A stretch of DNA of 52,543 bases from Hyphomicrobiales bacterium. GTDB lineage: Bacteria > Pseudomonadota > Alphaproteobacteria > Rhizobiales > Rhizobiaceae. Location of the stretch: NCBI GenBank assembly GCA_017305935.1, contig JAFKJU010000038.1, positions 1 through 52,543 of the forward strand. Direction: 5' to 3'. Below, piece by piece: positions 3,071 through 18,508 of the stretch (within the stretch, counting starts at the first letter, position 1; each line of letters starts with the position of its first letter). A program made the translations under genes and the position numbers. The notes under the pieces were generated by a model. It searched no databases. It saw nothing but the letters and a program-made list of their open reading frames with translations, and was not told where the DNA came from.

Positions 3071-3967
3071 TCAAGCGTTCTCGTATCGGAGGACGTTCGC
3101 CAGTTCGCGTTTGATGTTTTCAAGCTGGGCTGGCGTGGTGTTCGGCATCGGCATACGCGGCAGGCCGGCTTGCGTGCCCTGCAACGCGATGGAGGTCTTG
3201 ATGTTTGCCGGCAGGTTGTCCGCATAGATCGCGTTCCAGAAGCGCAGCAGCGCCTCGTGGATATCCTTGGCGAGCTTGTGATCGCCACGCTGGACGGCGT
3301 CCCATAGTGCGATGCACACGCCCGGAACGGCGGCCGGGTTCGCGGCGATCGTGCCGTGGCAGCCGATGGCGAAGGATGGATAAAGAAGCGCATCGACCGC
3401 CGAATAGACCTTGCAGCCCTGCGGAACGTTCAACATCAGGTCGGCCATCAGCTTCAGGTCGCCGGCGCTCTGCTTGACGCCCTGGACGCCGGGAAGCTCG
3501 GTCATCAGCCGCACCAGCAGCGCCGGGCTCAGATAGTTCCACGGCACGACATTGTAGATGATGACGGGAACATCCGTGGCTTCCGTCAGCGCCTTGAAAT
3601 GCGCATAGGTGGCCTCTTCGTCGGGCTTGAAGACATAGTGAACCGGCGTCACCTGCAATCCCTGCACGGACAGGTGCGAAATCGCCTTGGCGCGACGGAT
3701 CGCGTCACGCGTGGAATTGGCGATCATCCCGGCCAGAACCGGGATGGCACCGTTGACCTCCTCGACGGTGATTTCCATCAGCCGGGCGAATTCCTCGACG
3801 GTCAGTGTGTGGCCTTCGCCGGAGCTGCCGCCGACGCAGACGCCGTGTACCTTCTTTTTCAGGTTGAACTTGACGATATCGCGGAATGCCGCCTCGTCGA
3901 TATCGCCATTGGCGTTAAACGGGGTGACGATCGGCGGAATGATGCCATTGACCTTGTCGAGATTCAT
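3071..3967 (-). CDS. DapA/NanA-family pyruvate aldolase or dehydratase
   Basis: A 298-residue TIM-barrel enzyme of the dihydrodipicolinate synthase/N-acetylneuraminate lyase family. The Schiff-base lysine is Lys165 (GVKQSAGD), with Tyr138 in IIYNVVPWN and the pyruvate-carboxylate loop GGSSGEG at 46-52. It is probably not a true DapA: the Arg that holds aspartate semialdehyde after the YNVP motif is absent, and the second Tyr of VTPYY is His110. That leaves a catabolic 2-oxo-acid aldolase or dehydratase. ATG at 3967 has AAGGG upstream. It is the last gene of a leftward operon behind a DHA-type kinase and an aminotransferase, which suggests it cleaves the 2-oxo acid made by the aminotransferase. 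Exact substrate unknown. Confidence 0.88.
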   Translation of the reverse strand: MNLDKVNGIIPPIVTPFNANGDIDEAAFRDIVKFNLKKKVHGVCVGGSSGEGHTLTVEEFARLMEITVEEVNGAIPVLAGMIANSTRDAIRRAKAISHLSVQGLQVTPVHYVFKPDEEATYAHFKALTEATDVPVIIYNVVPWNYLSPALLVRLMTELPGVQGVKQSAGDLKLMADLMLNVPQGCKVYSAVDALLYPSFAIGCHGTIAANPAAVPGVCIALWDAVQRGDHKLAKDIHEALLRFWNAIYADNLPANIKTSIALQGTQAGLPRMPMPNTTPAQLENIKRELANVLRYENA

Positions 3968-4007
3968 GTTCGGATTCCCTTGGATGTTAAGGTTTGGGGG
4001 GTGTTTC

Positions 4008-4043
4008 CAGGACGCGCGGGATCGTTCGCCCGGAGGCGTCCTG
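4008..4043 (-). other. Intercistronic hairpin, kinase to aldolase
   Basis: Eight-bp arms CAGGACGC (4008-4015) and GCGTCCTG (4036-4043) with a 20-nt loop sit in the 113-bp gap between the kinase and the DapA-family gene. It could stabilise an mRNA end or attenuate read-through. There is no T tract. Confidence 0.4.
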
Positions 4044-4080
4044 AAAATTTCGTGGTGAGAGTGTCGATGCGGGCGCGGCG

Positions 4081-5754
4081 TCAGAGCCTGTCGGCGATCG
4101 CCCGCATCCAGATCGAGACGGCGACGGCGCCGCCGTCCGGGCTGCCGACGGCCCGTTCGCCGAGATAGCTGGCGCGCCCGAGGCGTGGGGTCATGGCGGC
4201 GGTCGCCGCAGCTCCGGCCGTGGCGGCGTCGGCGGCGGATTTCCAGCTTCCGCCGGCCCGGAGCGCTTCGAGCGCGGGATGCAGGGCATCCACCATCGTT
4301 CGGTCGCCGGGTTTTGCGCCGCCGATTTCCTGGATGGCCTGCACGGCAATCGCGAAGGCGTCCCGGAATTCGCAAAAGCCGGGGCGCTCGAAAACCGCCA
4401 GATGCCGGCCCGCCCGTGTCAGGGCGATCGCGTAGAACGGGCCGGAGCTGCCGGCAATATTCCGGCGCAGCGTGTTGCCGATGGTGACGAGCGCGTTGGC
4501 GGGCGTTGCCCAAGCCGTCTCGGGAAGCGCGCGGATGGCCTCCGCGCCGCGCATCATGCTGGCGCCGAGGTCGCCGTCGCCCGCCCGGCTGTCGAGATCG
4601 GTCAGCTGCGCCTCGGCTGCTTCCAATGCATCGGCGACGGCAAGGCCGATGGCGCGCAACCCTTGCGGATCGAAGCTGGCCGCATGGCCGATTACGGTAT
4701 CGTCGGCCTTTTCCCCTCCTGCCGCCACCAGCAAGGGTTTTTCGGGCACGAGCCCGCCTCTCGGCCAGGCGGACGCGGAGGTTGGCGCATCCAGCAGCGC
4801 CGCCGCGCCATCGTCCAGCATCATCACCGACAGCGAGCAGCCGGGCATTTCGATGGCGGTGAGGAAATTTCCGCTCCAGGCGCGCTTGACGGTGAGGCCG
4901 TGTGTTTTCAAAACAGCGAGCGCCCGGCGCGCGACGATCGCAAGCTCCATCGGCGGCGTCGCGCCAAGCCCGTTGACCAGCAGCGCGACCTCGGTCCCGG
5001 CGGGCAGGTTCATGTCGGACAGGATGGTGGCGACCAGGGTCTCGGCGATGGCGTCGGCGGAGAGAAGCTCCACCCGTTTGACGCCCTTCTCGCCGTGAAT
5101 GCCGAGGCCAAGCTCGATCTCGTCGTCGCCGAGGGAAAAGCTCGGCCTCCCCGCAGCCGGTACGGTGCAGGAACCGAGGGCAACGCCCATGGTGCCGATA
5201 CGCGCGGCCGTGTCGCGGGCGATGGCCGCGACCTCGGCCAGCGTTCTGCCGGCGGCGGCTGCGGCGCCTGCGACCTTGTGGACCAAAACCGTGCCGGCGA
5301 TGCCGCGCCGGCGCTCGCGCGGGACCACCTCCGACAGTGCCACATCGTCCGCGACGACAACAAGCTCGGTCAGAATGCCCTCGAGCGCGGCAAGCTCGCC
5401 CGCCAGCCCGAAATTCAACCGGTCGCCGGTATAGTTCTTGACGATCAGCAGCGCGCCGGCCGGTCCCGCCGTGGCGCGGATCGCCGCCAGCACCGCATCG
5501 ACGCTTGGCGACGTAAACACCTCGCCGGTGACGGCAGCGGTGAGCATGCCCTCGCCGACATAGCCAGCATGGGCGGGCTCATGCCCGGCGCCGCCGCCGG
5601 AAATCAGCGCCACCGGACGGGATTCGCGGCCGGGGATATCGGCGCGCAGCACGACGTTTTCGGTATCGAGCAGCGCCAGGCCGGAGGTCATGGCGACGAT
5701 GCCCTCCAGCATTTCGCGCACCACGTCGGTCGGCCGGTTGATGATCTTCTTCAT
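4081..5754 (-). CDS. Dihydroxyacetone-kinase family (DhaK-DhaL fused)
   Basis: A 557-residue ATP-dependent kinase with the single-chain DhaK (residues ~1-335) plus DhaL (~360-557) architecture. Substrate-site features are SGGGAGHEP (52-60), KNYTGD (106-111) and His220 (GLGIHGEKG), the residue that holds the ketose covalently in Citrobacter-type enzymes. The DhaL domain shows D388, D393 and D395 (DLDSRAGDGD), which bind Mg-ATP. Members phosphorylate dihydroxyacetone or related short ketoses such as erythrulose. ATG at 5754 has GGAG 9 nt upstream. It sits between an aminotransferase (14-bp gap) and a pyruvate-type aldolase, suggesting it traps a small ketose or aldehyde released by the aldolase. 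No PTS components are nearby. Confidence 0.92.
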   Translation of the reverse strand: MKKIINRPTDVVREMLEGIVAMTSGLALLDTENVVLRADIPGRESRPVALISGGGAGHEPAHAGYVGEGMLTAAVTGEVFTSPSVDAVLAAIRATAGPAGALLIVKNYTGDRLNFGLAGELAALEGILTELVVVADDVALSEVVPRERRRGIAGTVLVHKVAGAAAAAGRTLAEVAAIARDTAARIGTMGVALGSCTVPAAGRPSFSLGDDEIELGLGIHGEKGVKRVELLSADAIAETLVATILSDMNLPAGTEVALLVNGLGATPPMELAIVARRALAVLKTHGLTVKRAWSGNFLTAIEMPGCSLSVMMLDDGAAALLDAPTSASAWPRGGLVPEKPLLVAAGGEKADDTVIGHAASFDPQGLRAIGLAVADALEAAEAQLTDLDSRAGDGDLGASMMRGAEAIRALPETAWATPANALVTIGNTLRRNIAGSSGPFYAIALTRAGRHLAVFERPGFCEFRDAFAIAVQAIQEIGGAKPGDRTMVDALHPALEALRAGGSWKSAADAATAGAAATAAMTPRLGRASYLGERAVGSPDGGAVAVSIWMRAIADRL

Positions 5755-5768
5755 GGATGAGATCTCCG

Positions 5769-6956
5769 TTACTGGTCGCGCAGGAAGGTTTCGAGCCGGC
5801 GCGCGCCCTCTTCGATCAGCGCGGGATCGACCGCGAAGCAGACACGCAGGAAAGCCTCGCCACCCTGCCCGAAGGCGGAGCCGGGCGCAACGCCGACGCC
5901 GGCCTGCTTGAGGATGCGCCGGGCCATCTCATAGCCGCTGTTCATGCCATGCACGGAAAAGAAGAAGTAGAAGGTCCCTTCCGGCCAGAAGACGCGCACG
6001 TTCGGCAGCCGGTCGAGCGTCGAGCAGATGATCTCGCGGCCCTTGGCCGAGCGCTCAACCAGCGACTTGATGAAATCATCGCCCTGATCGAGCGCGGCGA
6101 CGGCCGCATGCTGGCTGAAGGTCGAGACGCTGGTGGTGTTGTACTGGCTGAGATTGTCGAAGATCGTCGACATGCCCGCAGGATAGACCAGCCAGCCGAC
6201 GCGCCAGCCGGTCATGCACCAGTTCTTGGAAAAGGTGTTGGTGACGATCAGCCGGTCGGTCGGCTCGGTGATTTCGAGAAAGGAGGGCGCCAGCTTGCCG
6301 TCATAGGTAAAGTGCGAATAGACCTCGTCCGACACGATCCAGATGCCGCGCTCGCGGGCGAAATCGCGCACCGCGATCATCTGTTCGCGCGGCATGATCC
6401 AGCCGGTCGGATTGGACGGCGAATTGATGGCGATGACCCGGGTCTTCGGCGTGACGGCCGCGAAAAGGTCGTCGAGGTCCAGCGTGAATCCGCCGGCCTC
6501 GCGGGTGCGATAGGGGACCGGAACGACCTTGCCGCCGAGAATGCCGACGATTTCCACGAGGTTCGGCCAGGCCGGAACCGGAACCACCACCTCGTCGCCG
6601 GGATTGAGAACGGCCTGAAAAGCCTGCATGATCGCCTGCACGCCGCCGGCCGTCGCGCTGAAGCGATCGGCACTGACATCGACGTTCCAATGGCGCTTGT
6701 GGTAGCGGCTGAGCGCCTCGCGCAGCGCCGGAACGCCGAGCGCATAGGTATAGCGCGTCTGTCCGGCATCGAGGGCGGCAACCGCCGCGTCGCGGATGAA
6801 GCCTGGTGTCGGCAGATCGCCTTCGCCGATCCACAGCTTGATGACATCGGGATCTTCGCGCGCCAGATCGGCGATATCGCAGATCTGGTTGAGCTCGATC
6901 GTGTTGATGCGCGCGGGTGTGCCGAGAACCGGCCAGTCGGCCGCCCGATAGTTCAT
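5769..6956 (-). CDS. PLP-dependent class I/II aminotransferase
   Basis: A 395-residue fold-type I aminotransferase. Visible features are the PLP lysine Lys244 in NTFSKNWCMTGWRVGW, Asn182 in SPSNPTG, Asp210 and Tyr213 in SDEVYS, and phosphate-binding Arg252. It resembles aspartate/aromatic aminotransferases acting on a small amino acid and 2-oxoglutarate or pyruvate. ATG at 6956 is preferred to one 12 codons upstream because GGGAG lies 7 nt before it. It is the first gene of the leftward operon, directly behind a divergent amino-acid ABC transporter, so it probably deaminates the imported amino acid. Its expression is probably set by the palindrome at 7021-7035. Confidence 0.93.
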   Translation of the reverse strand: MNYRAADWPVLGTPARINTIELNQICDIADLAREDPDVIKLWIGEGDLPTPGFIRDAAVAALDAGQTRYTYALGVPALREALSRYHKRHWNVDVSADRFSATAGGVQAIMQAFQAVLNPGDEVVVPVPAWPNLVEIVGILGGKVVPVPYRTREAGGFTLDLDDLFAAVTPKTRVIAINSPSNPTGWIMPREQMIAVRDFARERGIWIVSDEVYSHFTYDGKLAPSFLEITEPTDRLIVTNTFSKNWCMTGWRVGWLVYPAGMSTIFDNLSQYNTTSVSTFSQHAAVAALDQGDDFIKSLVERSAKGREIICSTLDRLPNVRVFWPEGTFYFFFSVHGMNSGYEMARRILKQAGVGVAPGSAFGQGGEAFLRVCFAVDPALIEEGARRLETFLRDQ

Positions 6957-7020
6957 GCCTTCTCTCCCAAAAACCACCTTCGGACAGCGCATCCATCGAT
7001 TTTTGATGGATCCCGATTTA

Positions 7021-7035
7021 TTCCGAATTGCGGAA
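7021..7035. promoter_or_regulatory. Putative IclR operator, aminotransferase side
   Basis: TTCCG-AATTG-CGGAA is a perfect 5+5 palindrome 65 bp upstream of the aminotransferase start. It matches the second site at 7142-7156 in both arms and four of five spacer bases (AATTG against AATAG). The pair brackets the divergent promoter region of a locus that ends with an IclR-family gene, so IclR binding is the natural reading. Binding itself is inference. Confidence 0.7.
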
Positions 7036-7092
7036 CATAAAGTCTTGTATTGCGAAGCTAATTGATTTTCTCCGTATCCGTCAACATCAAGG

Positions 7093-7120
7093 TTGATAGA
7101 TGTCGAAAATTATGTAGATA
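7093..7120 (+). promoter_or_regulatory. Possible sigma-70 promoter of the ABC transporter operon
   Basis: TTGATA (7093-7098), a 16-bp spacer and TAGATA (7115-7120) resemble -35 and -10 boxes. Transcription would start near 7127, so the second palindrome at 7142-7156 would lie just downstream, where a bound regulator could block elongation. Confidence 0.35.
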
Positions 7121-7141
7121 TATGTTTGCAATCTAATCATA

Positions 7142-7156
7142 TTCCGAATAGCGGAA
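7142..7156. promoter_or_regulatory. Putative IclR operator, transporter side
   Basis: TTCCG-AATAG-CGGAA lies within the 17-bp near-palindrome ATTCCGAATAGCGGAAT (7141-7157), 25 bp upstream of the binding-protein ATG. It is spaced exactly 121 bp from the copy at 7021. See that entry for the reasoning. Confidence 0.7.
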
Positions 7157-7181
7157 TTAACTATAATTGGGAGCTGATGAA

Positions 7182-8087
7182 ATGAAAAAATGGGCAGCGC
7201 TCGCGTTCGGCCTCGTGATGGCCTTTGCTTCGGCGGCCTCCGCCGCAGAAGACTCCCGGGGAACGTTGGGAGAAATCGTCAAAGCCAAGAAGATCGTCAT
7301 CATGAATGACCTTTCGGCGGCGCCGTGGCAGTTCAGGGACGCGAACGGCAATGCCGCCGGCTTCTCGGTCGACCTGAACCGCCTGATCGCCGCCAAGCTG
7401 GATGTGGATCTGGAAATGCGCAATGTCGAATGGGCCGGCCTCATTCCCGGCTTGCTGGCGCGCAAGTCCGATATTCTGGCAACGAGCATGTCGACCACCT
7501 TCAAGCGCGCGCAGCAGATTCTGTTCACGCAGGGAAGCTGGTATTCGACGGGCGTCGTCGCCATCGTCAAGCCGGAAAACAAGGACAAGTCCTGGGAGGA
7601 GCTGAACCAGGAAGGCAAGCGCATCGCCGTCAAGGCCGGCACCAATGCCGTGGACGCCGCCAAGCAGTTCTTTCCCAAGGCCGAGCTTCAGACCTACCCC
7701 AATGACGTCGACACCTATCAGGCCTTGAAGACCGACCGCGTTGACGCGACGCTGAACGACCTTGCGGTTCTCGGCGTTGTCAAGGCCGAATATGGTTTCG
7801 AGGCGATGACGGCGCCGCGCCAGCTCATCACCACCGATACCTGGGGCTTCGCGGTTCGGCCGGGCGATACCTATACGTGGCAGTTCCTCGATTTCTTCAT
7901 GGCCAAGATCAAGGAAAGCGGCGAGCTCGATGCCCTCAAGGCCTATTGGGTCGACGGCGAAACCTGGAAGGCCGATTTTCTGCAGAAGAACAGCGGCGTC
8001 TCCGAAGAGCGCAAGAAGCTCGTCGAGCTTCTCGGCATCGGCGCCTACGTGCCGGAAAGCAACGGCAACCGCATGAGCTTGCAATAA
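7182..8087 (+). CDS. Amino-acid ABC transporter, substrate-binding protein
   Basis: A 301-residue periplasmic binding protein of family 3 (HisJ/GlnH type). A signal peptide is clear: MKKW, a hydrophobic core, and cleavage near ASAAED at ~21-22. The mature part shows ligand-site blocks such as SAAPWQF and SMSTTFKRAQ, then NDLAVLG in the second lobe. ATG at 7182 has GGGAG 8 nt upstream; the TTG five codons earlier has no such site. It heads the transporter operon (binding protein, ATPase, two permeases, IclR). The family carries polar amino acids and opine-like compounds. Together with the divergent aminotransferase operon the ligand is probably an amino acid or amino-sugar derivative, identity unknown. 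Confidence 0.93.
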   Translation: MKKWAALAFGLVMAFASAASAAEDSRGTLGEIVKAKKIVIMNDLSAAPWQFRDANGNAAGFSVDLNRLIAAKLDVDLEMRNVEWAGLIPGLLARKSDILATSMSTTFKRAQQILFTQGSWYSTGVVAIVKPENKDKSWEELNQEGKRIAVKAGTNAVDAAKQFFPKAELQTYPNDVDTYQALKTDRVDATLNDLAVLGVVKAEYGFEAMTAPRQLITTDTWGFAVRPGDTYTWQFLDFFMAKIKESGELDALKAYWVDGETWKADFLQKNSGVSEERKKLVELLGIGAYVPESNGNRMSLQ

Positions 8088-8103
8088 GCCGTCCCTGCGC
8101 GGG

Positions 8104-8126
8104 CGACGGAGCGTTCGGCTCCGTTG
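8104..8126 (+). other. Intercistronic hairpin after the binding-protein gene
   Basis: A stem with arms ACGGAGC (8106-8112) and GCTCCGT (8118-8124), extended by C-G and G-U pairs and closed by a GTTCG loop, lies in the 74-bp gap before the ATPase gene. There is no T tract. Hairpins here commonly protect the upstream mRNA, so the binding protein is made in excess over membrane parts; applying that here is inference. Confidence 0.5.
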
Positions 8127-8161
8127 CCGCCTGTATGATGCTTCCGGGTCGGGAGAAACCG

Positions 8162-8902
8162 ATGGCCTATTTCGAGGCGCGCAACGTCAATCTGCATTTC
8201 AGTTCGTTCCATGCCCTGCGCGACGTTTCGTTGTCGCTGGAAAAGTCCGACGTTCTGGTGATCTGCGGGCCGTCCGGGTCCGGCAAGAGCACCTTCATCC
8301 GCGCCATAAACCGGCTGGCCGGGCCCCTGTCGGGCGGCGCCATGTCCTTCGACGGCGCCGATCTGGCGAGGATGCCGGCGCGCGACCTGCATCGCCGGAT
8401 CGGCATGGTGTTCCAGCGCTTCAACCTGTTCCAGCACCTGACGGTGCTCGACAATATCGCCCTGCCGCAGCGGCGCGTGCTGGGGCGCTCCAAGGCCGAA
8501 GCGCGGGCAAGGGCAATGGCGCTGCTCGAACGTGTCGGGCTGGCGGAAAAGGCCTCCGTCTATCCGGTGCAGCTCTCCGGCGGCCAGCAACAGCGCGTCG
8601 CCATCTGCCGGGCGCTGGCGATGGATCCGGCCATGCTGCTGTTCGACGAGCCGACATCGGCGCTCGATCCGGAAATGGTGGGCGAAGTTCTGCAGGTGAT
8701 GCGCGAACTGGCCGCCTCCGGCATGACCATGATCGTCGTCACCCACGAGATGGGCTTTGCCCGCGAACTGGCAAGCGAAATCGCCTTTCTCGAATCCGGT
8801 CAGGTGGTCGAGAAGGCGCCACCCGGCGAATTCTTTGCCCATCCGCGCGAAGAACGAACGCGCCTCTTCCTTTCGCAGATCCTGCATCATCAGGCCGGGT
8901 GA
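8162..8902 (+). CDS. Amino-acid ABC transporter, ATP-binding protein
   Basis: A 246-residue GlnQ/HisP-type ATPase that powers uptake at the cytoplasmic face. Walker A is GPSGSGKST (~35-43), followed by the Q-loop at VFQRFNLF, signature LSGGQQQR, Walker B MLLFDEPTSALDP and the switch His in VTHEM. ATG at 8162 has GGGAG upstream, and the protein starts in the usual place for the family (AYFEARNVN). The next gene, a permease, begins 5 bp after its stop, so translation is probably coupled. Confidence 0.95.
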   Translation: MAYFEARNVNLHFSSFHALRDVSLSLEKSDVLVICGPSGSGKSTFIRAINRLAGPLSGGAMSFDGADLARMPARDLHRRIGMVFQRFNLFQHLTVLDNIALPQRRVLGRSKAEARARAMALLERVGLAEKASVYPVQLSGGQQQRVAICRALAMDPAMLLFDEPTSALDPEMVGEVLQVMRELAASGMTMIVVTHEMGFARELASEIAFLESGQVVEKAPPGEFFAHPREERTRLFLSQILHHQAG

Positions 8903-8906
8903 CGAC

Positions 8907-9578
8907 ATGCTTTCCGACGCCTACGATCTCTTCTGGCAATATCAGGACACCTATCTTGCGGGGGTGCGCAATGCGCTCACGGCGGCGGGTCTCGGGCTCG
9001 TGCTCGCGCTTATGGTCGGCCTTCTGGTCGGGATGGTGCGCTTCACCTCGCGCGGCCGCCTCGGAAAAGCGATGGCGGTCTACGTCTCGCTGGTGCGCAA
9101 TACCCCGCTTCTCGTGCAGGTCTATTTCATCTATTTCGGCCTGCCGGCGCTGGGGTTGACGCTATCGGCCTTCTGGACCGGCGTCCTGGCGCTGACCTTC
9201 AATTCCGGTGCCTATATTTCGGAAATGGTGCGGGGCGGATTGAACGCCATTCCCAAGGGCCAGACGGAAGCGGCGCTCGCGCTTGGCCTCAACCAGCGCC
9301 TGCTGCTGGCGAAAGTGCTGCTGCCGCAGGCCGCGCCGACGGTGCTTCCGGCCGTCACCGGCCAGTTCGTGCAACTGATCAAGGATACCTCCCTGCTCTA
9401 CACCATCGCCGTGCTGGAAATCACCAAGGCCGCCGATGACGTCGGCAACGAAACCTACCAGTTCCTGCCGGCCTATCTGGTCAGTTGCGTGCTCTATATC
9501 GGCATCTGCGTCGTTCTCAACCTTCTGGTCGATCTCTACGAAAGCCGCGCCGGCTTTTCCAAACACAAGCGAGCGTGA
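8907..9578 (+). CDS. Amino-acid ABC transporter, permease 1
   Basis: A 223-residue inner-membrane permease of the HisM/GlnP type with about five hydrophobic segments. The cytoplasmic EAA loop that contacts the ATPase is visible at EMVRGGLNAIPKGQTEAALA. LVRNTPLLVQVYFIYFGLP is the usual family block near residue 70. ATG at 8907 follows the ATPase stop by 5 nt. It likely pairs with the next permease as a heterodimer. Confidence 0.94.
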   Translation: MLSDAYDLFWQYQDTYLAGVRNALTAAGLGLVLALMVGLLVGMVRFTSRGRLGKAMAVYVSLVRNTPLLVQVYFIYFGLPALGLTLSAFWTGVLALTFNSGAYISEMVRGGLNAIPKGQTEAALALGLNQRLLLAKVLLPQAAPTVLPAVTGQFVQLIKDTSLLYTIAVLEITKAADDVGNETYQFLPAYLVSCVLYIGICVVLNLLVDLYESRAGFSKHKRA

Positions 9579-9580
9579 GC

Positions 9581-10246
9581 ATGAGCGAGATTCTTTCCAC
9601 CGCCAGCGATGCCTTTCGCCTCATCGTCACCGGACTTCCAATCGTCCTGCTTCTGACCTTCGTCTCTTTCTTCCCCGCGCTCGGCATCGGCATCCTCGGC
9701 GGGCTGCTGGCGTCCTCGCGCGTGCGTGCGCTGCGGTTCCTGGTCGGCATTTATGTCTATATCTTCCGTAGCACGCCGTTTCTGATGTTCATCTTCCTCG
9801 TCTATTACGGGCTGCCGGAATTCGGCATCGACATCGGGCCGGTTGCGACCGCGATCATCGCTCTGTCGCTGTCGCATGGTGCCTATATGACCGAGATCAT
9901 CCGCGGCGGCCTCGGCAGCCTCGACAAGGGTCAGAACGAGGCGGCGATCGCGCTCGGTTTCAGCCTGTTCCAGCGCCTGCGCGACATTACGCTGCCGCAG
10001 ACGCTGATGGCGATCATCCCCTCATTGCTGGGGCAGGCGATCCTGATCGTCAAGGATACGTCACTCGTTTCCGTTGTCGGCATCAGCGAGATCACCCGGC
10101 TGGGGCGAGAAGTTGTCATTCGCACCAATGAACCATTTGTTGTATTCAGCCTGCTTGCGCTAACCTATTTCGCCGTCTGCTTCGTGCTGGAAACAGCGGC
10201 GCGAAAGCTGGAAGTCAAGGCGCGGCTGGTAATATCGGGACATTGA
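9581..10246 (+). CDS. Amino-acid ABC transporter, permease 2
   Basis: A 221-residue HisQ/HisM-type permease, the likely partner of permease 1. It shows the same RSTPFLMFIFLVYYGLP block and an EAA loop at EIIRGGLGSLDKGQNEAAIA. ATG at 9581 lies 2 nt after the previous stop (with GTGAGC before it), indicating translational coupling. The 3' end overlaps the TTG candidate start of the IclR gene by 3-4 bases, so the regulator is in the same transcript. Confidence 0.94.
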   Translation: MSEILSTASDAFRLIVTGLPIVLLLTFVSFFPALGIGILGGLLASSRVRALRFLVGIYVYIFRSTPFLMFIFLVYYGLPEFGIDIGPVATAIIALSLSHGAYMTEIIRGGLGSLDKGQNEAAIALGFSLFQRLRDITLPQTLMAIIPSLLGQAILIVKDTSLVSVVGISEITRLGREVVIRTNEPFVVFSLLALTYFAVCFVLETAARKLEVKARLVISGH

Positions 10247-11073
10247 AAGTGAATACGGGCATGGACAGTCACGCCGAGAACGAGGATGGGTCAGTTGCCG
10301 AGCCGGCAACGGAAGGCGCTCATGAAAGCCGCGATGCGGGCGCGAAATCGCTGCGAAAGATGGCGTTGGTCCTCGACAGTTTCTCCCGCCACAAGCCGAG
10401 CATGACAGTGGCGGAGCTTTCCCAGGCGACGGGCCTGCCGAAAACCACGATCCACCGGATCGTGGTTTCGTTGCGCGATGTCGGCATGCTGGATCAGGAT
10501 GGACGGCGTCAGGGGTACCGCCTCGGCCTGAAGATGTTTCATTACGGCAGCAGCGTGCTGGCAAGCCTCGACACCCCGACGCGCGCGCATCCGCATGTCG
10601 CCAAGTTGCAGCAACTGACGGGTGAGATCATCCATCTGCACATGTTCGACGGCAGCCAGATGATCTGCGTCGAGCGCGAGGAAATGACGTCCGCCAGCCG
10701 CACGACGCTGCAGGCGGCGCCCACCTATTGCACCAGTGTCGGCAAGGCCTTTCTCGCGTTTCAGAACGAAGAGCTCATCCGCCGTATCGTCGGCGGAGGC
10801 TTGCAGCGCTACACGCCGAACACGATAACCGACCTCGACACGCTCCTTGCCGAACTGGCCGTTATCCGCCAGCGTGGCTACGCGATCGACGATGAGGAAA
10901 TCGAGACCGGACTGCGCTGTATCGGCGCGCCGATCCGCGATTCCACCCAGCGGGTCTTCGCCGCTGTCAGCGTATCAGGACCTGCCGAGCGCATGCCGGA
11001 CGGCCGCCTTCTTGGCCTCGCGCCGGTCGTCATCCAGACAGCCAACGAGATATCCGTGGCATTGGCGGAATAG
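10243..11073 (+). CDS. IclR-family transcriptional regulator
   Basis: A protein of up to 276 residues with an IclR winged helix (~35-95: SLRKMALVLDSF, then LSQATGLPKTTIHRIVVSL) and a C-terminal effector domain with TSVGKAFLAF and the RQRGYAIDDEE motif. The start is uncertain: TTG at 10243 overlaps the permease stop, GTG at 10249 and ATG at 10261 are alternatives, and none has a strong ribosome site. All lie before the DNA-binding domain. It is the last gene of the transporter operon and the best candidate to bind the two TTCCG-N5-CGGAA palindromes at 7021 and 7142. Repression lifted by the transported compound is the simplest model (inference). Confidence 0.92.
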   Translation: MKVNTGMDSHAENEDGSVAEPATEGAHESRDAGAKSLRKMALVLDSFSRHKPSMTVAELSQATGLPKTTIHRIVVSLRDVGMLDQDGRRQGYRLGLKMFHYGSSVLASLDTPTRAHPHVAKLQQLTGEIIHLHMFDGSQMICVEREEMTSASRTTLQAAPTYCTSVGKAFLAFQNEELIRRIVGGGLQRYTPNTITDLDTLLAELAVIRQRGYAIDDEEIETGLRCIGAPIRDSTQRVFAAVSVSGPAERMPDGRLLGLAPVVIQTANEISVALAE

Positions 11074-11254: not shown

Positions 11255-12268
11255 TTAAGACGGATCGCATCGCTGAACCGGCTCAACGATCTCATTCGGC
11301 GGCAAGCGAGGTGGCTTTTCTCTCGCCGGCGCAAAGCGCATTCCGAGCTTGCCGATCATGTCCTCATCCTGCCATGCAGCGGGATTGCCGGTCGTCAGCA
11401 GGGCATCGCCGACGAATATGGAGTTCGCGCCGGCGAGAAAGCAAAGCGCCTGAAGTTCTTCGCTCATGCCGGTCCGCCCGGCCGACAGCCGCACCACGCT
11501 TTCCGGCATCAGGATCCTGGCAAGGGCGACCGTTCGGACGAGCGCCAAGGGATCGACCGGTTTCGCCCGCTTCTGCACGGGCGTATTGCCGATCTCGTTC
11601 CAGAGGTTGATCGGGACACTGTCTGGATGAGCAGGCAGGGTCGCAATCGTTACAAGCATCGCGATACGATCCCTGACTTCCTCTCCCATTCCAAGGATAC
11701 CGCCGCAGCACACCCTGATGCCGCCCTTGCGCACGCGATCAAGCGTTTCCAGGCGGTCATCCATCGTCCGGGTGGTCGCGATCTCGCGGTAATATTCGGG
11801 CGACGTATCGATATTGTGGTTGTAGAAATCGAGGCCCGCAGCCTTCAGGCGTTCGACATGTCCCGGCGAGAGCATGCCGAGCGTCATGCAGGTTTCCAGC
11901 CCCATGTCGCGCACACCCTCGACCATCGCGCAGAGCTTGTCCATGTCGCGATCCTTCGGGCTTCGCCAGGCCGCGCCCATGCAAAATCGCTGCGCGCCGG
12001 ATGCTTTCGCCCGCCTCGCAGCGCCGAGGACAGCCTCCAGTTCCATCAGCTTCGTCGCCTTGACGCCGGTGTCGTGATGGGCACTTTGCGAACAATAGCC
12101 GCAATCCTCCGGGCATCCCCCCGTCTTGATCGACAGAAGGCTCGCGGTCTCGATCACGGTCGGGTCGAAGTGGCGGCGGTGAACGTCCTGAGCGCGATGG
12201 ATGAGATAGGGGAAGGGCAGGTCATGAGTGGCCTGCGCTTCTTCGAGAGTCCAGTCGCTGCGGATCAT
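11255..12268 (-). CDS. bioB: Biotin synthase
   Basis: A 337-residue radical-SAM enzyme that inserts sulphur into dethiobiotin, the last step of biotin synthesis. The CxxxCxxC motif for the 4Fe-4S/SAM cluster is C52, C56, C59 (CPEDCGYC). The 2Fe-2S cluster ligands are seen in [12 protein letters not shown] and VCCGG, with the Arg in RLSAGR. Length is typical. ATG at 12268 overlaps the bioY stop by 4 nt (ATGA), so both are co-translated. No bioF, bioA, bioD or bioZ lies in the window. The promoter upstream of bioY carries a BioR box. Confidence 0.97.
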
Positions 12269-12825
12269 CGCGCGGCGCCGCTCCGCAGGCTGCGCCAGCC
12301 GCAGATCATCGCCACGCCGAGCCCGATTTTCAGCAGGTCGCCGGGAAGGAAAGGAGCAAGGCCAACCGAGACGAGGGAGCGTGCCGGCACGAACATGACC
12401 AGCCACGCAAGCCCCAGCGCATAGACGACGGCAAGACCGGCCATCATCGCGCCAGCGATCCGCAGGGCGCCGCCCTTGCCGGCCAGCCGGCCGGTCAGCC
12501 AGCTTGCGACCAGAAAGCCGAGAAGGTAGCCGCCAGTCGGTCCCACGGCATAGGCCAAACCGATACCTCGCTCGGGCGAACCCGAAAAGACGGGAAGGCC
12601 CGCAAGTCCGGCGCAAAGGTAAGTCGCCATGGCCGCCAACCCGAGGCGTGGCCCCATTGCCGCGGAAAAGCCGAGAACCGCGAGCGTGTGCAGCGTCATC
12701 GGCACGGGCCAGAAAGGAATCTGGACCTTGGCGCTGGCGGCAATCAAGGCCGCTGCGCCGATGGCGAGCCCGCAAGCCCTCAGGCGGCGCAGCGAATGAG
12801 AATTGAACGAAACTGCGTGTTGCAT
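12265..12825 (-). CDS. bioY: Biotin transporter S component BioY
   Basis: A 186-residue membrane protein with about six hydrophobic segments and the BioY blocks [12 protein letters not shown] and [12 protein letters not shown]. BioY is the substrate-capture subunit of ECF-type biotin uptake and may work alone or with EcfAT/BioMN encoded elsewhere. ATG at 12825 is chosen because GGAG lies 9 nt upstream; the ATG at 12834 would touch that site. It is the first gene of a bioY-bioB operon, with a BioR box 67 bp upstream of this start. Confidence 0.94.
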
Positions 12826-12892
12826 CGAAATCATCTCCGGTCGTTACGAATAATCGATAAAAATCGGGATTCGACGCTCGCTGCAATACAGA

Positions 12893-18112: not shown

Positions 18113-18508
18113 TCAATCGGGGATGACGGCGATGGCCTGGATCTCGATCTTGGCGCGTTCCTCGACCAGCGCCACCACCTGCATGGCGGCCATGGCCGGG
18201 AAATTCTTGCCCATGACTTCGCGATAGGCCGCGCCCAGTCCCTTGAGGTTGGCGAGGTACTCGGCGCGGTCGGTAAAGTACCAGGTCATGGTGGTGACGT
18301 GTTCCGGCCCCGCGCCGGCCTCGGCCAGAACGGCGACGATGTTTTTCAGCGTCTGGCGCACCTGCTCGACGAAATCGTCGGACTCGAACTGGCACTCAGC
18401 ATTCCAGCCGATCTGCCCGCCGACGTAAACGGTGCGCCCTTGCGCCAGAATGCCGTTGGAATAACCAAGCGGCTTGGCCCAGCCTTCGGGTTGCAGGATT
18501 GTGTGCAT
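18113..18508 (-). CDS. RidA/YjgF-family protein lacking the catalytic arginine
   Basis: A 131-residue small protein of the Rid family, which forms trimers and hydrolyses enamine or imine intermediates. The fold is recognisable from TVYVGGQIGW, VEQVRQTLKNIVAVL and the C-terminal KIEIQAIAVIP. The arginine equivalent to Arg105 of E. coli RidA is Leu114 here (VVALVEERAK), so it belongs with the non-RidA subfamilies of unknown or pathway-specific function. ATG at 18508 has GGAGAG upstream. Its place in a 2-aminobenzoyl-CoA-type operon, where the monooxygenase/reductase product is an enamine, suggests a deamination or tautomer role; this is inference. Confidence 0.88.
   Translation of the reverse strand: MHTILQPEGWAKPLGYSNGILAQGRTVYVGGQIGWNAECQFESDDFVEQVRQTLKNIVAVLAEAGAGPEHVTTMTWYFTDRAEYLANLKGLGAAYREVMGKNFPAMAAMQVVALVEERAKIEIQAIAVIPD

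Follow-up and report, generated by a model that had tools for sequence, protein, structure and literature searches.

The 52,543-nucleotide contig JAFKJU010000038.1 of a Hyphomicrobiales bacterium (GenBank assembly GCA_017305935.1), hereafter the window, carries between positions 3,071 and 11,073 three minus-strand enzyme genes that are divergent from plus-strand genes for an amino-acid ABC importer and an IclR-family regulator. This gene set is a real unit and not a chance association, and the same set recurs in other genera. With a probability of about 0.55, we read it as an IclR-controlled catabolic unit in which an amino acid would be converted to a 4-hydroxy-2-oxo acid, which would then be split into pyruvate and a ketose to be captured as the ketose phosphate. 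The gene content, its conservation, the exchange of aldolase and kinase between related clusters and the common palindromes rest on sequence, and from them we infer every reaction and the identities of the substrate and the ketose.

Genes of the unit and their recurrence

The minus-strand genes encode a DapA-family protein (3,071..3,967; PF00701, 194.7 bits), proposed to be a class I pyruvate aldolase splitting a 4-hydroxy-2-oxo acid into pyruvate and a ketose; a fused Dak1-Dak2 kinase (4,081..5,754; PF02733, 386.7 bits, and PF02734, 139.2 bits), proposed to phosphorylate the ketose; and a class I/II aminotransferase of the PRK06108 subfamily (5,769..6,956; PF00155, 209.5 bits), proposed to turn the amino acid into the 2-oxo acid. 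On the plus strand follow a family-3 periplasmic binding protein of an amino-acid ABC importer (7,182..8,087; PF00497), the importer ATPase (8,162..8,902) and two permeases (8,907..9,578 and 9,581..10,246), the last three identified with curated models and Pfam, and the IclR-family regulator (10,243..11,073; PF01614 and PF09339), which is 74-80% identical to its counterparts in nine other amino-acid cassettes. The gene starts are our reading of the sequence. The initial annotation of this DNA had listed a DapA-family gene, a DhaK-DhaL fusion and an aminotransferase divergent from amino-acid ABC and IclR genes, and every one of these genes was confirmed.

The PF00701 match, the catalytic residues Lys165 and Tyr138 and a TIM-barrel match place the DapA-like protein in the superfamily of DapA and N-acetylneuraminate lyase. 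Its AlphaFold model (mean pLDDT 93.5) has the fold of both enzymes, with TM of about 0.9 and 23-31% identity among the 50 matches listed. With DapA it has in common the TIM-barrel fold, the catalytic lysine and tyrosine and the implied Schiff-base chemistry on pyruvate, but it scores below the dapA cut-off (176.1 bits against 206.15), and the substrate arginine of DapA is replaced in a tryptophan-containing stretch. In the alignment to the solved DapA 6mqh, NVPGRT stands opposite NVVPWN and that arginine is absent, just as the initial annotation had claimed. The protein also falls well below the cut-offs for N-acetylneuraminate lyase (TIGR00683, 115.4 against 382; PRK04147, 130 against 281). 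Lys165, Tyr138, Tyr111 and Trp143 are invariant in 46 aligned sequences, the window protein included; a more distant relative (L048) has histidine at the Trp143 position. These features suggest that the protein would function as a class I (Schiff-base) pyruvate aldolase.

The kinase belongs to the Dak family, with both Dak1 and Dak2 parts, a PRK14479 score of 650 bits (cut-off 492) and the His/Asp/His motifs. It retains the GGGAGHEPAH, KNYTGDRLNF and IHGE stretches of solved dihydroxyacetone kinases, and its closest solved relative is 1un9. Because the window kinase has the canonical letters of the dihydroxyacetone site, we would guess first that the ketose is dihydroxyacetone. The genome of the window holds three further Dak1 genes (C1:109204, C1:112081 and C97:120200), five in all.

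The aminotransferase scores above the PRK06108 cut-off (496.2 bits against 422), a model that leaves the substrate undefined. Family-3 binding proteins hold the alpha-carboxylate of the ligand with an arginine and the alpha-amine with an aspartate. Arg114 and Asp198 of the window binding protein align with the arginine and aspartate of ancestral binding proteins (AncCDT-1) and are invariant in 11 aligned sequences, which identifies the system by alignment as a polar amino-acid ABC importer. An amino-acid ligand is therefore likely. The AlphaFold model of the binding protein has a pLDDT of 33.5, and no claim about the pocket was drawn from it.

One alignment-based scan for the DapA-like protein was run over a collection of species genomes. 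It returned 549 related stretches, the best 80 of which were analysed as loci, some of them near-copies (for example L129 and L076). Neighbouring genes were labelled by blastp against about 70 reference proteins from the window and from annotated plasmid records, the ATPase and permease labels resting on Sinorhizobium meliloti proteins. In 59 of the 80 loci the aldolase gene has a Dak gene no more than 10 kb away, as against none of the 20 control neighbourhoods, which surround other DapA-family genes with 28-33% identity to the window protein (Fisher p 5e-10, kinship ignored). This comparison is weakened by the fact that the control genes are unclassified and probably mostly dapA. An IclR relative of at least 48% identity is found in 47 of the 80. 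If only the 63 loci flanked on either side by 8 kb or more are counted, 50 have the Dak gene and 40 the IclR relative, and when 78 of the 80 aldolases were grouped at 85% identity, 18 of the 27 groups had a Dak gene in at least one member locus.

The divergent promoter of the window contains two TTCCG-N5-CGGAA palindromes, which are candidate IclR operators: TTCCGAATTGCGGAA (7,021..7,035), 64 bp before the aminotransferase start, and TTCCGAATAGCGGAA (7,142..7,156), 25 bp before the start of the binding-protein gene. In one set of 10 cassettes that includes the window, 9 have at least one strict copy in their divergent promoter; the exceptions are L042, with a one-mismatch copy, and an eleventh cassette, from Shinella oryzae, with variants only. 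The two sites are 119-121 bp apart in the five cassettes that have two strict copies, again including the window. In 89 related loci, the window not counted, there are 21 strict sites in 15 loci, where 1.4 were expected from single-letter shuffles, although several of the 21 lie outside promoters; the 20 control loci have one. Looser copies precede the aldolase gene in 23 of 71 non-cassette loci, compared with 1 of 23 controls and 7% in shuffles. The IclR protein may act on these palindromes. A wider regulon was sought and rejected. Searched across the genome, the strict pattern TTCCGNANNNCGGAA picked out both window sites, one of them on either strand, and two incompletely symmetric places (on contigs C25 and C80). 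A relaxed 13-base form was found 26 times, no more often than its reversed control (33 times), and therefore marks no wider regulon.

Feeder enzymes and the exchange of aldolase and kinase

A relative of the aminotransferase lies within 10 kb of the aldolase gene in 7 of the 80 loci, and all seven also have amino-acid ABC permeases and a Dak kinase, so the enzymes are conserved with the transporter, the check that the initial annotation had proposed for its reading. Another potential source of the 2-oxo acid, a GlcD-like FAD-linked oxidase, occurs in 34 loci over the same distance, and no locus has both (Fisher p 0.019, kinship ignored). GlcD is the nearest model of this oxidase, yet its score is under the GlcD cut-off. 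We take the GlcD-like family to convert 2-hydroxy acids to 2-oxo acids, and propose that the oxidase of the related clusters is a 2-hydroxyacid dehydrogenase. The importers in the 80 loci are likewise varied: TRAP genes occur in 16, TctA in 16, a branched-chain ABC permease in 19 and, in 22, an MFS carrier that has shikimate and tricarballylate carriers among its relatives. Most relatives accompany the FAD-linked oxidase or carboxylate importers alone. The same MFS carrier stands beside the aldolase gene in five of the seven aminotransferase cassettes and a TctABC set is carried by one, as if the acid form were imported as well. Relatives of the aminotransferase with at least 80% identity were found in one genome besides its own among 397, and in 6 of 13 plasmid records; each stands next to the gene for the binding protein or the aldolase of a cassette of this kind, and the matches that come after them reach at most 52%.

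Comparison of the cassettes showed that the aldolase has been exchanged with clusters of the other feeder type. When the window is compared with the cassette of S. meliloti R28, identity is 85% for the aminotransferase, 78% for the binding protein, 77% for the IclR protein and 68% for the fused kinase, but only 48% for the aldolase. The R28 aldolase shares 63% identity with its counterpart in a Devosia cluster that lacks an aminotransferase, and the aldolase of the window shares 66% with that of an Azospirillum cluster. In a tree of 101 aldolases, the aminotransferase-linked proteins fall in two places, with at least three label changes, one of which is a relative without aminotransferase inside the clade of the window. 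For 43 chosen rows, a tree with all aminotransferase-linked aldolases in a single clade was rejected, its log-likelihood being lower by 160.8 (p-AU 4e-106); this test involved long branches near the S. meliloti row and a group chosen after the first tree had been seen.

The kinase is exchanged as well. In the cassette of Rhizobium sp. 16-488-2b (L057), the aminotransferase and aldolase genes have no fused kinase gene between them. Beyond the importer genes lies a split kinase that shares 73% identity with a kinase of a TRAP/oxidase cluster and has the cassette palindrome at its start. This is the one exchange of a kinase between an amino-acid cassette and the oxidase-cluster type. In the cassette on plasmid pZ25 of S. 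oryzae, our search found no kinase of its own, and an oxidase, a split kinase, two further aldolases, TRAP genes and TctC lie within 17 kb of it. This is the sole stretch seen in which the two feeder types occur together; some 12 kb separates them, and either has an aldolase of its own. The region 18,000-45,000 of pZ25 (L189) holds three kinds of aldolase beside amino-acid ABC, sugar ABC and TRAP/TctC genes with one kinase found, and Shinella sp. H4-D48 (L191 and L045) has at least two kinds beside sugar ABC, TRAP and TTT genes.

Most simply, parts that replace each other act on the same or very similar molecules. Because aldolase and kinase exchange between feeder types, the order of transamination, aldol cleavage and phosphorylation that the initial annotation had suggested fits the data, and its enzymes are conserved with the transporter. 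What did not stand is the tie of the pathway to amino acids: the aldolase-kinase pair is not bound to them and the amino-acid version is rare.

Proposed pathway and its alternatives

In the reading that we favour, the ABC importer would bring in a neutral, hydroxylated alpha-amino acid, which the aminotransferase would convert to the matching 4-hydroxy-2-oxo acid. A retro-aldol reaction of the DapA-like aldolase would split this acid, releasing pyruvate together with a carbonyl compound that ends in HOCH2-C(=O)-, most likely dihydroxyacetone, and the fused kinase would phosphorylate the ketose, dihydroxyacetone giving dihydroxyacetone phosphate, so that both products could join central metabolism. 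In related clusters, a GlcD-like oxidase acting on a 2-hydroxy acid, or direct uptake, may provide a 2-oxo acid of the same kind. A dihydroxyacetone product would imply, as the imported amino acid, 2-amino-4,5-dihydroxy-4-(hydroxymethyl)pentanoate (trihydroxyleucine) or a compound closely related to it; another ketose, such as hydroxyacetone, glyceraldehyde or erythrulose, would mean a different amino acid. Trihydroxyleucine is made from dihydroxyacetone and occurs in a fungal natural product, according to the consulted part of PMC11976203. Several other substrates were set aside by reasoning. Homoserine, 4-hydroxyglutamate and 4-hydroxyleucine would give formaldehyde, glyoxylate and acetone, products that need no such kinase, and in isosaccharinic acid the hydroxyl-bearing carbon beside the carboxylate is unable to become a 2-oxo group. 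A broader version, which we put forward only tentatively, holds that a widespread pathway forms a branched tertiary-alcohol 2-oxo acid interchangeably from a trihydroxyleucine-type amino acid or from the corresponding 2-hydroxy acid and cleaves it with a new ketone-releasing class I aldolase to pyruvate and dihydroxyacetone. Importers and feeder enzymes would plug into this core, under IclR in one branch and apparently GntR in another, across Alpha- and Betaproteobacteria and some Gammaproteobacteria.

A number of observations count against the favoured pathway or narrow its reach. The kinase is not universal, since 21 of the 80 loci (13 of the 63 with flanks of at least 8 kb) have no Dak gene within 10 kb, and neither feeder enzyme is present in 39 of the 80. 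The sugar of the window kinase may not be dihydroxyacetone, because its score is below the cut-off of the glycerone-kinase equivalog TIGR02361 (508.9 against 574.95), and some clusters may use a related ketose, since the split kinases are without the HEPAH and KNYTGD letters and have HLP[LV]F or HFPLF and GNYGGD instead. IclR control is not general, because a GntR/FCD-family regulator stands directly before the aldolase gene in about 30 loci, mostly of Burkholderiales (for example L074, 9,066-9,887), a count that corresponds to a cluster of 30 loci in which the family of one representative was tested. The amino-acid cassette is rare: aminotransferase identity falls from 86% to 52% with nothing between, and a close binding protein occurs in 2 of the 397 genomes of the order, its own genome included. 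Neither a ligand nor a solved close relative points to any single substrate; no relative of the aldolase or the binding protein whose ligand we know turned up in structure searches, which covered the aldolase and the TRAP, branched-chain and amino-acid binding proteins of the clusters and give no ligands for their matches. In the sole paper found, trihydroxyleucine is mentioned, as far as the consulted part goes, only as a component of a fungal natural product (PMC11976203).

The carbonyl product might instead be glyceraldehyde, with an ordinary 2-keto-3-deoxyhexonate as the oxo acid, the kinase serving as a glyceraldehyde kinase and 2-amino-2,3-dideoxy-hexonic acid as the amino acid. Aldolases of the DapA superfamily that cleave 2-keto-3-deoxy sugar acids are well known, Dak kinases accept glyceraldehyde, and a sugar-type ABC importer accompanies an aldolase paralogue in the Shinella islands. 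A fungal pathway yields pyruvate and L-glyceraldehyde (PMC5488244, in the part consulted). The window protein, however, scores far below the cut-off for the archaeal KDG aldolase (NF040954, 101.5 against 390), and we know of no natural amino acid with the required structure. We consider glyceraldehyde unlikely. We give a similarly low chance to the idea that the feeder types use different 2-oxo acids with an aldolase of broad specificity, in which case the oxidase-fed clusters would say nothing about the amino acid of the window. In Shinella plasmids, aldolase paralogues of about 50% identity lie close together and adjoin different importers, a hint that their substrates are related yet distinct; against this, only one kinase was found for both types in the S. 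oryzae stretch, and similar palindromes precede the genes of both.

Still less probable is the reading in which the DapA-like protein dehydrates, decarboxylates or deaminates a sugar acid or cyclic amino acid and the kinase serves another branch under the same regulator. The superfamily includes such enzymes, and models of the KdgD type score 102-121 bits on the protein; the 21 loci without a nearby Dak gene would also agree with it. The protein nevertheless misses the cut-off for 5-dehydro-4-deoxyglucarate dehydratase (KdgD; 102.4 against 373.95), and this reading is hard to reconcile with the kinase being present in 59 loci and no control, or with the exchange of both aldolase and kinase between feeder types.

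Two known breakdown routes resemble the pathway proposed for the window. In hydroxyproline breakdown, a 4-hydroxy amino acid is transaminated and 4-hydroxy-2-oxoglutarate aldolase, of the DapA superfamily, then gives pyruvate and glyoxylate. The logic of transamination and cleavage would be the same, but glyoxylate needs no kinase. In the non-phosphorylative 2-keto-3-deoxy sugar-acid pathways, glyceraldehyde is the triose, and the aldolase is not known to be fed by an aminotransferase. These pathways, with the archaeal KDG aldolase or the fungal 2-keto-3-deoxy-L-galactonate aldolase, likewise use a pyruvate aldolase of the superfamily to give pyruvate and a triose (PMC5488244, same part); the window differs in having an aminotransferase and in missing the KDG aldolase cut-off. 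The fused Dak1-Dak2 architecture and the site motifs of the window kinase are those of dihydroxyacetone and erythrulose kinases. Whereas the known kinases of that kind are linked to glycerol or tetritol dehydrogenases, the window kinase is linked to a pyruvate aldolase. The UstD-type decarboxylative aldolase likewise joins dihydroxyacetone and trihydroxyleucine through one C-C bond; it differs in being engineered and used in the synthetic direction, and no sequence relation is claimed (PMC11976203, same part). No description of the gene set was found among the papers listed in searches of the open-licence literature, in keeping with the remark of the initial annotation that it knew of no described pathway with these genes. 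We file the unit among the pyruvate-aldolase catabolic operons and not under DapA, nanA, KDG aldolase or glycerone kinase, whose cut-offs or residues it lacks.

If correct, the pathway would name a function for a DapA-family group with hundreds of members, encoded in the 549 stretches of the one scan, which the annotated records examined label only "dihydrodipicolinate synthase family protein". It would also point to a class of compounds in soil and rhizosphere worth searching for, and a class I aldolase that releases a ketone would be useful for the synthesis of tertiary alcohols. Since aldolases and kinases have been exchanged between clusters with different feeders, a small number of assays could put the question to the test.

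Further clusters and neighbouring genes

The genome of the window (G000) has a second aldolase-kinase cluster on contig C1 (27,800-41,600; L035, 5,862-19,606), with an FAD-linked oxidase, a split kinase, an IclR gene, an aldolase and importers of the TRAP and branched-chain ABC types. The nearest structure entry of its TRAP binding protein is 4p47 (286 bits). Also in this cluster is a protein related to 2,4-didehydro-3-deoxy-L-rhamnonate hydrolase, which scores 370 bits where the cut-off is 500. In Devosia neptuniae (L047, 13,562-15,786), genes for an RraA-family protein, a FadR regulator and an SDR oxidoreductase adjoin the aldolase-kinase cluster, and the same set is present in genome G041 (L037). 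RraA relatives include other pyruvate aldolases.

In the window, an amidase gene (393-1,832; PRK06169, 557 bits, above its cut-off) and a LysR gene (1,965-2,921) adjoin the unit. They were treated as unrelated to it because no relatives of either were found among the labelled neighbours of the nine other cassettes. After the IclR gene, bioY-like and bioB-like genes lie on the opposite strand (11,255-12,834), judged by eye from their translations only. A tRNA call at 18,368-18,455 has a four-letter anticodon and is probably spurious. The region 16,090-24,410 matches plasmid genes annotated as salicylyl-CoA 5-hydroxylase, acyl-CoA dehydrogenase and enoyl-CoA hydratase, and is probably a cluster for the degradation of aromatic acyl-CoA compounds.

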